A stretch of 64,000 nt of DNA, taken from positions 124,001 to 188,000 of the forward strand of contig CANQRF010000001.1 of NCBI GenBank assembly GCA_947626195.1. Reading direction: 5' to 3'. The translations under genes were made by a program, and so were the position numbers. Positions 1-4,061 of this stretch are shown here, one piece after another. Source of the stretch: an uncultured Eggerthellaceae bacterium. GTDB taxonomy: Bacteria > Actinomycetota > Coriobacteriia > Coriobacteriales > Eggerthellaceae. Position 1 is the first letter of the stretch, and each line of letters opens with the position of its first letter. The notes beneath the pieces were generated by a model. It was not told where the DNA came from. It saw nothing but the letters and a program-made list of their open reading frames with translations, and ran no database searches.

Positions 1-293
1 GAAAGTTTTTCGATGTTCTGGGCGGCTATCGTGCTGTTGGAACAGATGTAGGCGATCTTGACGAGATCGTCGCCTTCTTTGGAGCGCAGGCTCGCGATCT
101 TCGCAATTACGCCACGTGCAACGAGCGTCTTGCCAAGCCCCACCTCATCAGCGACAAGCACGCGTTTGCGCCCCTGCTCGTAGATGTTCGATACGTGCTC
201 GACGGTAGCACGTTGGAAAGGAGCGAGGCCATCGAGTACCTTTCGCTCGATTTCGGCAAGGCGGTTTTGGACATTGAAGGTTTTGTCCGTCAT
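1..293 (-). CDS. SNF2/DEAD-like helicase, N-terminal part (cut by window edge)
   Basis: Only the first 97 or so codons are present; the gene runs off the left edge. The start ATG lies at 293-291 and overlaps the stop of the upstream PLD gene as ATGA, so translation is probably coupled. The protein reads MTDKTFNVQNRLAEIERKVL and then carries a clear Walker A (motif I) near residues 48-60, ADEVGLGKTLVARG, in the form typical of superfamily 2 helicases of the SNF2/helicase-related group. It would hydrolyse ATP on nucleic acid. Last of three co-oriented genes (DUF6361 - PLD - helicase), a context that suggests a nucleic-acid-targeting defence system. The C-terminal helicase domain and any extra domains cannot be seen. 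Confidence 0.8.
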   Translation of the reverse strand, partial: MTDKTFNVQNRLAEIERKVLDGLAPFQRATVEHVSNIYEQGRKRVLVADEVGLGKTLVARGVIAKIASLRSKEGDDLVKIAYICSNSTIAAQNIEKL

Positions 294-2212
294 CGCTCCA
301 CCGCCGCTATGAAAGTACGGATCATTGCCTTAAGGGCTTCCACCTCTTCGGCGTCGACATCGTCGGGAATGAGGCTGATCAGATACTCCGCCTGCACAAT
401 CGATTCAGGATTTGAGTATGCCATTCTTAAAAGCCGTTCATAAAGGCCGTGGGGAATAAGTGCTCGAGAACGCGCGGTGCTGTGCGATAATTTCGATGTT
501 GGCTCTGTGTCACCACTATACTCGGCTTCCGGCATTCTGAACGCATGTGCAATATAGAGCGCAAGGGCACCCTGGTTAGCGGCCAGCATGGAATCGAGTA
601 ATGCGCGGCTGCGCATATCGAAATCCACCTCATCATCGTAAAACAGATCATGAGGACAGCAGAGAATGCATGATACAGCGTTATTGCCCTCGTCTTCCCC
701 CTCCACGATGAATATCGATGATACTTGCTCGAGCTTCAATGGGCCGAAGACGAGATGCTCGCTCCCTCCGTTTGAATTAATCCCAACCTTTTTCCACGAG
801 ACCGAGAGAAGCGGACGCATACGATACGAGATGCTGCCGCTCTCTTTGGTCGCTTTTTTCAATTTGTACGTGACGTCAAGGAAAATTGCGCCACCCTTCC
901 AGATTACCTTAACGGCTGTGAAGCTGATTGTTTTTACGCCGGCTTGAAATATTCGACTGAATTTCCGATTCTTTTCGTCGGCAGGTACAGGTGCGGGATC
1001 GGGTATATAGGGGGCAAACGCTCCTTTTGTCTTCTCGTCGCCGATGAATGATTTCGTGAATTGCTCGAATGTGAGCCGATGTGGCCTCACCGTAAGATGA
1101 AGCAGCGCTTCGACGTTGTTGATTGTGCCATTGCGGGAAGCATTGAGCGATCCGATATAGAGGTGGCGCTGAGAATTCGGCTCCTGCGCATAATAGATCT
1201 TCGCGTGGAGGTCTGAATAATCGGCTGCGAGAGGACCATCTTCTCCTTCGAGTTCTACATTTGCAAGCCACGAAACCGGCGCATAGCATTCATAGGCTTC
1301 CTTGAGCTCGTCGTCAATATTCTCAAGCGAGTCATCTCTGCTGATGAGCAGGTATTTTCCGCTCTGACCGCTGCGATGCTTCACAAATAATCGAAGCGGC
1401 GAATCTTCAGCACTGCTGAGAAACGGCGATACGACGAGTAGATGATGGTATTTTTGAGACAAAAGATCGATCGAACGAGCATCGAGCAGCATGCCCTCTT
1501 TGTCATCCACGGGACCGATCGGAAGAAACTCGACTGATGTGAAGTAGTTCTCATCGATCTCGAAATCGACGTGACTAACGGCGTCCGCGAGTTGTCGGAC
1601 ACGAGCCGAATGTGAGCCCCTCTTTCGCATGTTGTCTCTTTCCGTATCCGTGTACGAATCTCCTAAAGCGAGAAAATCAAGGAAGGCGGCAAGACGGTGG
1701 GCGCACTCGTCTCCCGCGCCGAGATGGCCATCAATGGAGATCGCAGCATCCCAAGAGGTGTCGAAGGTGAGATTGCGGCTCATCACGATGAGACGGTAGA
1801 GGTTTTCCTTATCCAGCTCAATCGGCTCGTATTCGACAACCCATACCTTAGGATGAAAGGACGAGAGTCCGTCTGCGGAGCGCTTATGGACGTGAACTTG
1901 GTGGATCATATTCTCAAGAAGAATCGCCAGACTTGAGGATCTCGCATCACCACCGATATCCGCGTTGATATGACCCTTATCGCAGTAGATGACGATTTTT
2001 CCTTGGAGCTCTTGTAGAGCGGCGAACAAGCTCACCGGATTGATGAATGCGAGCGATTCCGGTTCGAAGCCTAAGCCAAGGGGAATGCAGAGCCCAAGCA
2101 GAGCCCGCAGGTCGAGCGTGTATGTTGTGCCGACCGCAAATGAAGTTCTATATCCTTCAGGTGGTCTGAGCGTCTCGGGAAAGCTGAGACGGCCTTCGTC
2201 CATCTCAAGCAT
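290..2212 (-). CDS. Phospholipase D-fold protein of a putative defence operon
   Basis: About 640 residues. Two halves of an HKD-type phospholipase D active site are visible: FHPKVWVVEY near residue 120 followed by SRNLTFDTSWD, and DLHAKIYYAQ near residue 332 followed by YIGSLNASRNGTINNVE. Each half has the H-x-K with a downstream N/S-rich strand, so a paired PLD nuclease-like catalytic fold is likely. The C-terminal third is a beta-rich region of unknown role. I start it at the ATG at 2212, which has GGTGG five bases upstream and overlaps the DUF6361 stop by eight bases; a GTG at 2221 and an ATG at 2203 are alternatives. Its stop overlaps the helicase start. PLD plus helicase pairs recur in bacterial defence systems (DISARM DrmC is one case), but the companions here are different. 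Confidence 0.75.
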   Translation of the reverse strand: MLEMDEGRLSFPETLRPPEGYRTSFAVGTTYTLDLRALLGLCIPLGLGFEPESLAFINPVSLFAALQELQGKIVIYCDKGHINADIGGDARSSSLAILLENMIHQVHVHKRSADGLSSFHPKVWVVEYEPIELDKENLYRLIVMSRNLTFDTSWDAAISIDGHLGAGDECAHRLAAFLDFLALGDSYTDTERDNMRKRGSHSARVRQLADAVSHVDFEIDENYFTSVEFLPIGPVDDKEGMLLDARSIDLLSQKYHHLLVVSPFLSSAEDSPLRLFVKHRSGQSGKYLLISRDDSLENIDDELKEAYECYAPVSWLANVELEGEDGPLAADYSDLHAKIYYAQEPNSQRHLYIGSLNASRNGTINNVEALLHLTVRPHRLTFEQFTKSFIGDEKTKGAFAPYIPDPAPVPADEKNRKFSRIFQAGVKTISFTAVKVIWKGGAIFLDVTYKLKKATKESGSISYRMRPLLSVSWKKVGINSNGGSEHLVFGPLKLEQVSSIFIVEGEDEGNNAVSCILCCPHDLFYDDEVDFDMRSRALLDSMLAANQGALALYIAHAFRMPEAEYSGDTEPTSKLSHSTARSRALIPHGLYERLLRMAYSNPESIVQAEYLISLIPDDVDAEEVEALKAMIRTFIAAVER

Positions 2213-3485
2213 TGAAACCACCGGCTTGATCTATCTCTCGGATGATGGCAAGACCTTGATTGTAGCGATAAGGGAGCCTGAGACCGCCGCGCCAGCCAAT
2301 TTCTCCGAGATCGTCGCGACCGATTTTGACCTGCTGTTTTCTTTTGATGTCTCGCTCTCGCTCTCTCACTACACGTTTGAGCTTGTCAATATCGCTATCG
2401 AGCATCGCTTGCTGAGCCTTTTGCAGGAAATCTCTCAAAGGGAGGAAGCCTGCATGGTGGGTTAAATTGAGCTCGATTATCGTTTCGTCGATGCTGAGTT
2501 TGTGAGCGACTTCGCTTGCTCGGGGTGAGAACTGCTCCCAAGCATCGGCCCCTGCCCACTCGAGGCCCGTAAGCTGCATGTTGTAGGCGATGCGACAGCC
2601 GAGAACAAACTCACTGAAGCAATCAGCGAGCAAGCATAAGGCCGCCAACTTTGGGGATCGCTCTTCCAGCCTGTCGAAGCCGGCATGATGGAAGAAGGAG
2701 TGAAATGACGATTCCCCACCACCAAAATAATCATTCTCGTCAATCTGTTGCGATGCAAGGGCGATGGTACGGAGTGTTTCGTCCTGCATGAGAAGCGCAA
2801 AAAGCGATTTTGGCTGTTCCTTTATGATTTGAGTTTTGAGGAAGTCGGCTTCTTGGTCGGTGAGCGCGATCGAAGCGGAATCCCGCCAATTGCGCCATTG
2901 CTCTTCCCACGCATGCCAGCAGGTTGGCGGTATATTCCAGACGCTTCCAACGGCGACATTGTCATCATTTGCACCATCGTCGGTAGATTCGGACAGCGAT
3001 TCACGATAGCGCATGCGTGCATCTGAGGCATAAGCGAAGTAATGGGTGTAACTTGTGGGCGAGAACGGCTTCAGAAAACCAAGAGCATGCAGAGATGCCC
3101 AATAGATTTCGCCTGGCCCACGGCTTACCCACTTGCCTTGAGTAAGGGTGACTCTTCCGATGATGCCTTCATGGTTTTCTAAGCGGGAAAGCAGACCTCT
3201 TGCGCACTGTTCTTCAAGGTTGTTATATTCGGATCGGAGAGAACGCGGATCTCTGCGCTTTGAATCATTACCCGTTTCGAGCCCTTTCATGAGGTAGGCC
3301 GTCAAGAAGAAATACCGCGCCTTCGTAAACAACGTGGAGGTGCCGGGGAACAGTCGGTTCGCAAAAGCGTCTCGAACGACACCGATGCCGAGTTCATCGA
3401 CTGATCCGGGCTCCTGCAAGTTATGAAGCACCATCAGCGTCCGCTCGCGCTCCTCTGGGGAGAAATCTATCCAACCGATCTGCAT
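2205..3485 (-). CDS. DUF6361 family protein
   Basis: About 426 residues, first gene of the three-gene operon. The N-terminus IGWIDFSPEERERTL, then EPGSVDELGIG and FPGTSTLFTKARYFFLTAYL, matches what I remember of DUF6361, a family of unknown function found beside PLD-like proteins and helicases. No catalytic motif is recognised; the C-terminus is basic and helical (residues about 360-400, rich in K, R and E), compatible with nucleic acid contact. The start is uncertain: the ATG at 3485 lies just before the conserved segment and has a weak AGGA 12 bases upstream; a GTG at 3515 adds ten residues. I infer a sensor or adaptor role only from context. Confidence 0.7.
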   Translation of the reverse strand: MQIGWIDFSPEERERTLMVLHNLQEPGSVDELGIGVVRDAFANRLFPGTSTLFTKARYFFLTAYLMKGLETGNDSKRRDPRSLRSEYNNLEEQCARGLLSRLENHEGIIGRVTLTQGKWVSRGPGEIYWASLHALGFLKPFSPTSYTHYFAYASDARMRYRESLSESTDDGANDDNVAVGSVWNIPPTCWHAWEEQWRNWRDSASIALTDQEADFLKTQIIKEQPKSLFALLMQDETLRTIALASQQIDENDYFGGGESSFHSFFHHAGFDRLEERSPKLAALCLLADCFSEFVLGCRIAYNMQLTGLEWAGADAWEQFSPRASEVAHKLSIDETIIELNLTHHAGFLPLRDFLQKAQQAMLDSDIDKLKRVVRERERDIKRKQQVKIGRDDLGEIGWRGGLRLPYRYNQGLAIIREIDQAGGFNA

Positions 3486-3542: not shown

Positions 3543-3794
3543 ATGCAAGCTTGTTGCATGACAGCATCGCCCTGTTTGCAGACTGTGTATAGTTTCGAGA
3601 TTAAGCATCACTCAAGGAAACCGAAGAACTCATTAAATGTTATGCGGTTAGTTCTTGACGACACGCCAAAGGCCAAAACGGAGCTGAAACGCCACCATAA
3701 CATGCATGTGCTCAAAGGAGACTGGTACGGAAATTTCGAATGTCATGTCGCAGACGCCGGAGATTGGTTACATTGGCATCTCAACTGCGGATAA
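3543..3794 (+). pseudogene. Degraded YafQ/RelE-type toxin remnant
   Basis: The short frame keeps pieces of the YafQ mRNA interferase family: YSFEI near the start, MRLVLDDTP in the middle and HVLKGDWYGNFECHVADAGDWL at the end (shown in parts: LKGDW, ECHV, DWL). Intact family members continue after DWL with a strand and a conserved His needed for catalysis; here the frame runs into HWHLNCG and stops. The linker between the first strand and the helices also looks scrambled. I read it as a toxin gene that has decayed by frameshift or deletion. It lies 58 bases from the start of the defence operon and converges with a ribbon-helix-helix remnant, so a complete toxin-antitoxin operon is not present. 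Confidence 0.45.
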
Positions 3795-3827
3795 CCCTTT
3801 TGAAGCGCCCTAAGCAAGCTTCGCTCT

Positions 3828-4061
3828 CTACGCGATGCCCGCCGTGCTGAGGTCCATTTCTACAAGATGGCGAAGGTAGTCGGAGCGTTTCATTCCGAGC
3901 TGTTTTGCCCGCTTGCCGAGCACTCGGAGCTTGAGGGAAGCTATCGCAATGATCTGGCTTCCTTCAGCAGTGCCTCCCGCTTCATGCCATCCTGCAAATG
4001 ACACGATATGACGTTGGCAATCGTAGTAGAATCGGGCGGGTCGGGATAGCTTCCCCGCCAA
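3828..4061 (-). CDS. Ribbon-helix-helix antitoxin-like small protein, possibly a remnant
   Basis: Seventy-seven codons. The last 35 residues, ASLKLRVLGKRAKQLGMKR then SDYLRHLVEMDLS, look like the ribbon-helix-helix fold of Arc/MetJ-type antitoxins (beta strand, helix with AKxLGMxRSDYLR, second helix). The first 40 residues do not look like such a domain and may come from an upstream fusion or frameshift, so the true start may be internal. It is convergent with the YafQ-like fragment, whereas antitoxin and toxin are normally co-directional. Probably a leftover of a rearranged toxin-antitoxin pair. Confidence 0.35.
   Translation of the reverse strand: MAGKLSRPARFYYDCQRHIVSFAGWHEAGGTAEGSQIIAIASLKLRVLGKRAKQLGMKRSDYLRHLVEMDLSTAGIA

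Follow-up and report, generated by a model that had tools for sequence, protein, structure and literature searches.

A three-gene operon of an uncultured Eggerthellaceae bacterium matches the published Azaca defence system in all three proteins

Results

The window described here is the whole 64,000-nucleotide stretch at positions 124001-188000 of contig C1 in the 1.83 Mb draft genome of an uncultured Eggerthellaceae bacterium. Three overlapping open reading frames on the minus strand, labelled zacA, zacB and zacC below, lie within its first 3.5 kb. The zacA gene (2205..3485, minus strand) encodes a DUF6361 protein of 426 aa when translated from ATG 3485 or of 436 aa from GTG 3515, and the ATG is the likelier start because homologues at two other loci (L032 and L033) begin there. 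The zacB gene (290..2212, minus strand) encodes a PLD (HKD) protein of about 640 aa with two half-sites, and has GTG 2221 as an alternative start (ORF 290-2221). Only the first 97 of the 1119 aa of the SF2 helicase encoded by zacC fall inside the window (1..293, minus strand), where the gene runs off the left edge; its remainder occupies contig C1 120934-124000, and with this left flank added the whole gene (C1 120934-124293, or L002:12934-16293) is complete and has no internal stop. An earlier sequence-only reading had described three minus-strand genes overlapping by eight bases and then by ATGA, and this agrees with what is found when the overlaps are counted from the ATG starts (8 bases between zacA and zacB, whose ATG is at 2212, and ATGA between zacB and zacC).

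Beyond zacA lie two toxin-antitoxin remnants, which the same reading had called debris and which are real but modest: the C-terminal part only of a YafQ-type toxin (3543..3794, plus strand; Pfam YafQ_toxin E=8e-6, profile 22-65/88, below cutoff), and an antitoxin-like fragment of ribbon-helix-helix type (3828..4061, minus strand; weak VapB_Myco match, E=0.005, and NikA-like match, E=0.05). The 3' end of the latter is one copy of an 89-bp direct repeat (right copy, window 3824..3912), which encodes the C-terminus of the antitoxin-like gene with its weak VapB/NikA-like matches. The left copy (contig C1 120689-120777) lies just past the zacC stop, and the two copies, 94% identical, bracket the operon and are the only strong ones in the source genome, which holds in addition a weak 45-bp match at C1:228836.

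The operon is flanked on its left, downstream side by two genes, one with a VWA domain and one for a 426-aa macro-domain protein of ADP-ribose hydrolase type (L002:10287-12308, contig C1 118287-120308), and on its right by genes for a methyltransferase-fold protein and an APH-type kinase as well as by adhE. Copies of the macro-domain gene occur in a congeneric genome and in two further family members (57-95% identity). A conserved functional link between it and the operon was considered and dropped, as it is not beside the homologous operons in L031-L037, where the only macro-domain neighbour is DarG of a separate DarTG pair (L035). No second complete defence system was found among the neighbouring genes tested, and the operon is not obviously part of a large defence island.

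All three proteins match PADLOC models of the Azaca system (ZacABC, PDLC03828/29/30) over their full length: ZacA with E=2.2e-71 (protein 12-431, profile 4-393/396), ZacB with E=1.6e-103 (profile 1-581/586) and ZacC with E=8.4e-255 (protein 16-1114/1119, profile 6-1017/1019). Chance cannot account for matches of this strength (E-values down to 1e-254), and the adjacency, common strand and A-B-C order of the genes are those of Azaca; zacC is present once in the source genome. The DUF6361-PLD-helicase trio is therefore, judged from sequence, almost certainly Azaca. Pfam assigns ZacA to DUF6361 above cutoff (PF19888, E=6e-22), as had been proposed for the first gene, and detects PLDc_2 in ZacB below threshold (18.1 vs 27 bits), and a search of ZacA, ZacB and ZacC against NCBIfam returned no family naming any of the three. 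The trio could seem unnamed because Pfam offers no more than DUF6361, a sub-threshold PLD domain and a helicase and NCBIfam names none of them, and no paper naming DUF6361 appeared in the literature searched. The proposal that it forms an undescribed three-gene system nevertheless has next to no chance of being right, since full-length matches to three Azaca models (E 2e-71 to 8e-255) come together with a published name, and the proposal itself was to fail if the trio already had one. The accompanying claim, that of a compact defence operon made of these three parts, stands.

The catalytic positions are conserved throughout. In ZacB, half-site 1 (H123-P-K125 ... N150) and half-site 2 (H339-A-K341 ... 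G-S-x-N360 ... E371) are both invariant in 7 homologues, in keeping with the two H-x-K half-sites read from the sequence earlier. The predicted SF2 helicase start of the third gene likewise holds for the full 1119 aa protein: motifs I (GLGK), II (DEFQ), III (SAT), V (GQEG.DFH) and VI (QREGR) are invariant in 6 homologues, with Walker A K55 and D288/E289 mapped as catalytic residues. Whole-length alignments give identities to the window proteins of 22-41% for ZacA, 24-36% for ZacB and 29-46% for ZacC. The clearly decayed YafQ and antitoxin fragments at the border might suggest that the operon too is a non-functional remnant, a reading that we consider very improbable given three frames that are full length against the models, lack internal stops and keep every catalytic residue. 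The locus is real, complete and intact-looking, and belongs to a known kind of system, not a new one.

Against solved structures, the ZacB profile found 7clg (4e-4), which is a putative helicase that includes a PLD part, as well as NucT (0.007), BfiI (0.0098) and NgoVII (1.2). No lipases were among these matches, only nuclease-type PLD proteins, which points to nuclease rather than lipid chemistry for ZacB; the profile scores that suggest this assignment are weak and lie around the second half-site. The ZacC profile found RapA in the PDB, and its family-model matches are to DrmD/DpdE-type helicases. No relative of known structure was detectable with the ZacA profile, and single-sequence PDB searches with ZacA and ZacB gave nothing meaningful. 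AlphaFold2 models of ZacA and ZacB had mean pLDDT values of 32.5 and 29.1, from alignments with two eligible sequences each, and are poor because eligible homologues are too few.

Triads in the same A-B-C order are found at six other loci: L033 in the same family, L034, L035 and L037 in the same phylum, L032 in Lacrimispora, and L041 (MT835621.1) on a faecal scaffold with the unverified label "Bacteriophage sp.". The last holds all of Azaca immediately after a complete type I RM operon (L041 4026-19346), and probably represents bacterial DNA or a mobile island and not a genuine phage. Viral contigs gave no matches when scanned with profiles of ZacA, ZacB and ZacC and with one relative. Within the phylum, ZacA models match in 8 of 396 genomes; within the family, ZacB is full length in 2 of 138, and in a third, the sister genome G042, the system is cut by a contig end. 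Defence genes also adjoin the triads of L034 (a type I restriction enzyme), L035 (DruE of Druantia and a DarTG pair), L032 (a BnzB-like protein) and L037 (RTasNERD-Hel, a reverse-transcriptase-associated NERD helicase). With L041, these neighbours indicate that the Azaca family generally resides in defence islands, and the nearness of homologous triads to defence genes that the sequence-only reading had made a condition is seen with type I RM, Druantia, DarTG, Bunzi-like and RT-type neighbours. Its defence island thus stands for the homologous triads, but not obviously for the window's own copy, which has no second complete system among its tested neighbours. At the level of sequence, the identity of the components, the intact frames, the intact SF2 and PLD catalytic motifs, the gene overlaps and the conserved A-B-C co-occurrence are all apparent.

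Two further observations concern relatives of single components. At L038:7138-17754, a lone ZacA-like (DUF6361) N-terminal gene adjoins DISARM-type DrmMII, DrmA and DrmB, and DUF6361 proteins may thus occur outside Azaca as well. Many genomes of the family (G003, G051, G076 and others; L006-L022) contain open frames of about 1000 aa with weak matches to half-site 2 of ZacB; these are possibly single-chain PLD-helicase proteins.

No other 7 kb of the surrounding 80 kb is as poor in G+C as the operon (51.4%, against a mean of 58.4%, sd 2.7). A congeneric contig (L031, CANQTB010000059.1) carries ZacC residues 513-1119 up to the contig end, 94% identical over that part, with one repeat copy beside zacC (L031:2310-2395) at a locus other than the window's. 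G042 has the repeat at the same position beyond zacC; the rest of its zacC contig matches parts of contigs C3, C4 and C2 of the source genome, and the copies of the genes that flank Azaca in the window are on other contigs without Azaca. A binning error may lie behind this differing locus, both genomes being drafts and G042 having 4% contamination. The view that G042 lacks Azaca, which a negative ZacB search had suggested, was dropped, as its contig C59 bears the repeat as in L031 and zacC is cut at the contig end. Recent transfer was likewise not taken as proven by the ZacC DNA identity to G042 (97-98%), because other shared stretches have 89-98%. Together with the repeats, the composition makes the operon look like horizontally moved defence cargo, and the reading as a whole, a complete Azaca operon in Eggerthellaceae that is mobile cargo between short direct repeats, is in our judgement highly probable.

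In G042, two sites that match both Azaca flanks (G042:C150 and G042:C162; L054 and L055) have other sequence present instead, with an antitoxin-like gene and an apparent AAA ATPase fragment, hinting that the site is a variable insertion hotspot. A more specific proposal, in which Azaca and its repeat-derived borders form a self-contained mobile unit that repeatedly inserts at, or by recombining with, a VapB-like antitoxin gene at its 3' end, we hold to be distinctly unlikely. If true, toxin-antitoxin remnants in Eggerthellaceae would provide defence cargo with landing pads.

Discussion

The Azaca anti-phage system was reportedly first described and named by Millman et al. 2022, which we take to be reference [7] of PMC10121019. 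The name is used in four papers (PMC10121019, PMC12278908, PMC10952713, PMC10482375), of which the first draws Azaca, with other systems, from that reference [7], the second lists ZacC among defence helicases and the third notes a PLD-like domain in Azaca. The window trio is alike to Azaca in all three proteins end to end and in gene order; what sets this copy apart is its 22-46% identity to homologues in other genera, the direct repeats that bracket it, and a locus without any other recognised complete defence system.

Other systems share parts of this design. DISARM likewise joins helicases of SF2 type (DrmA/DrmD) to a PLD protein (DrmC), and ZacC has DrmD-like helicase motifs, but against the DrmD model it scores 65.5, where the cutoff is 610, the ZacB-DrmC match has E=0.029, and neither DrmB (DUF1998), a DrmA-level match nor DrmM was found in the trio or its tested neighbours with Pfam, PADLOC and NCBIfam. 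Single-chain PLD-helicase proteins (PADLOC PLD_Helicase, NF042964, 7clg) and Mokosh have the same PLD and SF2 helicase chemistry. The single-chain proteins, however, are one polypeptide whose definition includes no DUF6361 partner, whereas the trio consists of separate genes; the NF042964 score is 41.6, with a cutoff of 1100, and Mokosh models are absent from the best 25 ZacC matches and from the ZacA and ZacB matches. Hachiman (HamAB) resembles the trio by analogy only, in its logic of an effector and an SF2 helicase, and differs in having another nuclease, a Ski2-like helicase and two genes (PMC12278908). No match to HsdM, HsdS or HsdR of type I RM was found in the trio or the immediate neighbours tested.

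As a mechanism, we propose that ZacC, a predicted ATP-driven translocase of the RapA/DrmD/DpdE-like SF2 (Swi2/Snf2-type) group, would recognise and travel along invading or abnormal DNA. ZacB would be a PLD-family endonuclease, its two HKD half-sites building one active site within the chain, and would cut the DNA that ZacC exposes; ZacA (DUF6361) would serve as a bridge or adaptor, or as a sensor, with the nuclease silent until ZacC engages. We infer this division of labour from the conserved motifs and remote relatives of ZacB and ZacC. Hachiman is a precedent for a helicase-gated nuclease (PMC12278908). We would give an even chance to a ZacB nuclease directed by ZacC, divided between cutting confined to the invader and cutting without discrimination.

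Two other mechanisms bear on the role of ZacB. DISARM can do without its PLD protein DrmC (PMC9142583), so ZacB might not be the essential effector; DrmC also does not co-purify with DrmAB, for which a roadblock has been proposed (PMC9142583), and ZacC is most like RapA/DrmD/DpdE-type SF2 helicases. Azaca may accordingly act as a helicase roadblock, in which ZacAC loads on phage DNA and blocks replication or transcription while ZacB is an auxiliary, dispensable clean-up nuclease, but we think this rather unlikely. No complete triad was found without ZacB, whose gene overlaps or directly adjoins those of both partners; this argues against dispensability, since a dispensable part would sometimes be lost, and all four H/K catalytic residues of ZacB are invariant.

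The other mechanism is that of an abortive system, in which the ZacB nuclease, freed on infection, would destroy DNA (or RNA) of host and phage without distinction in a Hachiman-like manner. Such a helicase-gated indiscriminate nuclease has been demonstrated for Hachiman (PMC12278908), and no companion DNA methyltransferase with which host DNA might be marked was recognised among the genes next to the trio, which suggests that self-discrimination probably relies on DNA state and not on modification. ZacB is, however, a PLD-type protein, apparently unlike the Hachiman effector HamA, and we see the abortive mode as possible without expecting it.

That the supposedly undescribed trio is a published system saves discovery effort. 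Since the mechanism of Azaca is still given as unknown (PMC10482375, PMC12926258), the useful yield lies in the mapped residues (H123, K125, H339 and K341 of ZacB; K55 and D288/E289 of ZacC), in the reading of ZacB as a probable nuclease rather than a lipase, and in a compact, complete Azaca copy from a gut actinobacterium in which these predictions may be tested.
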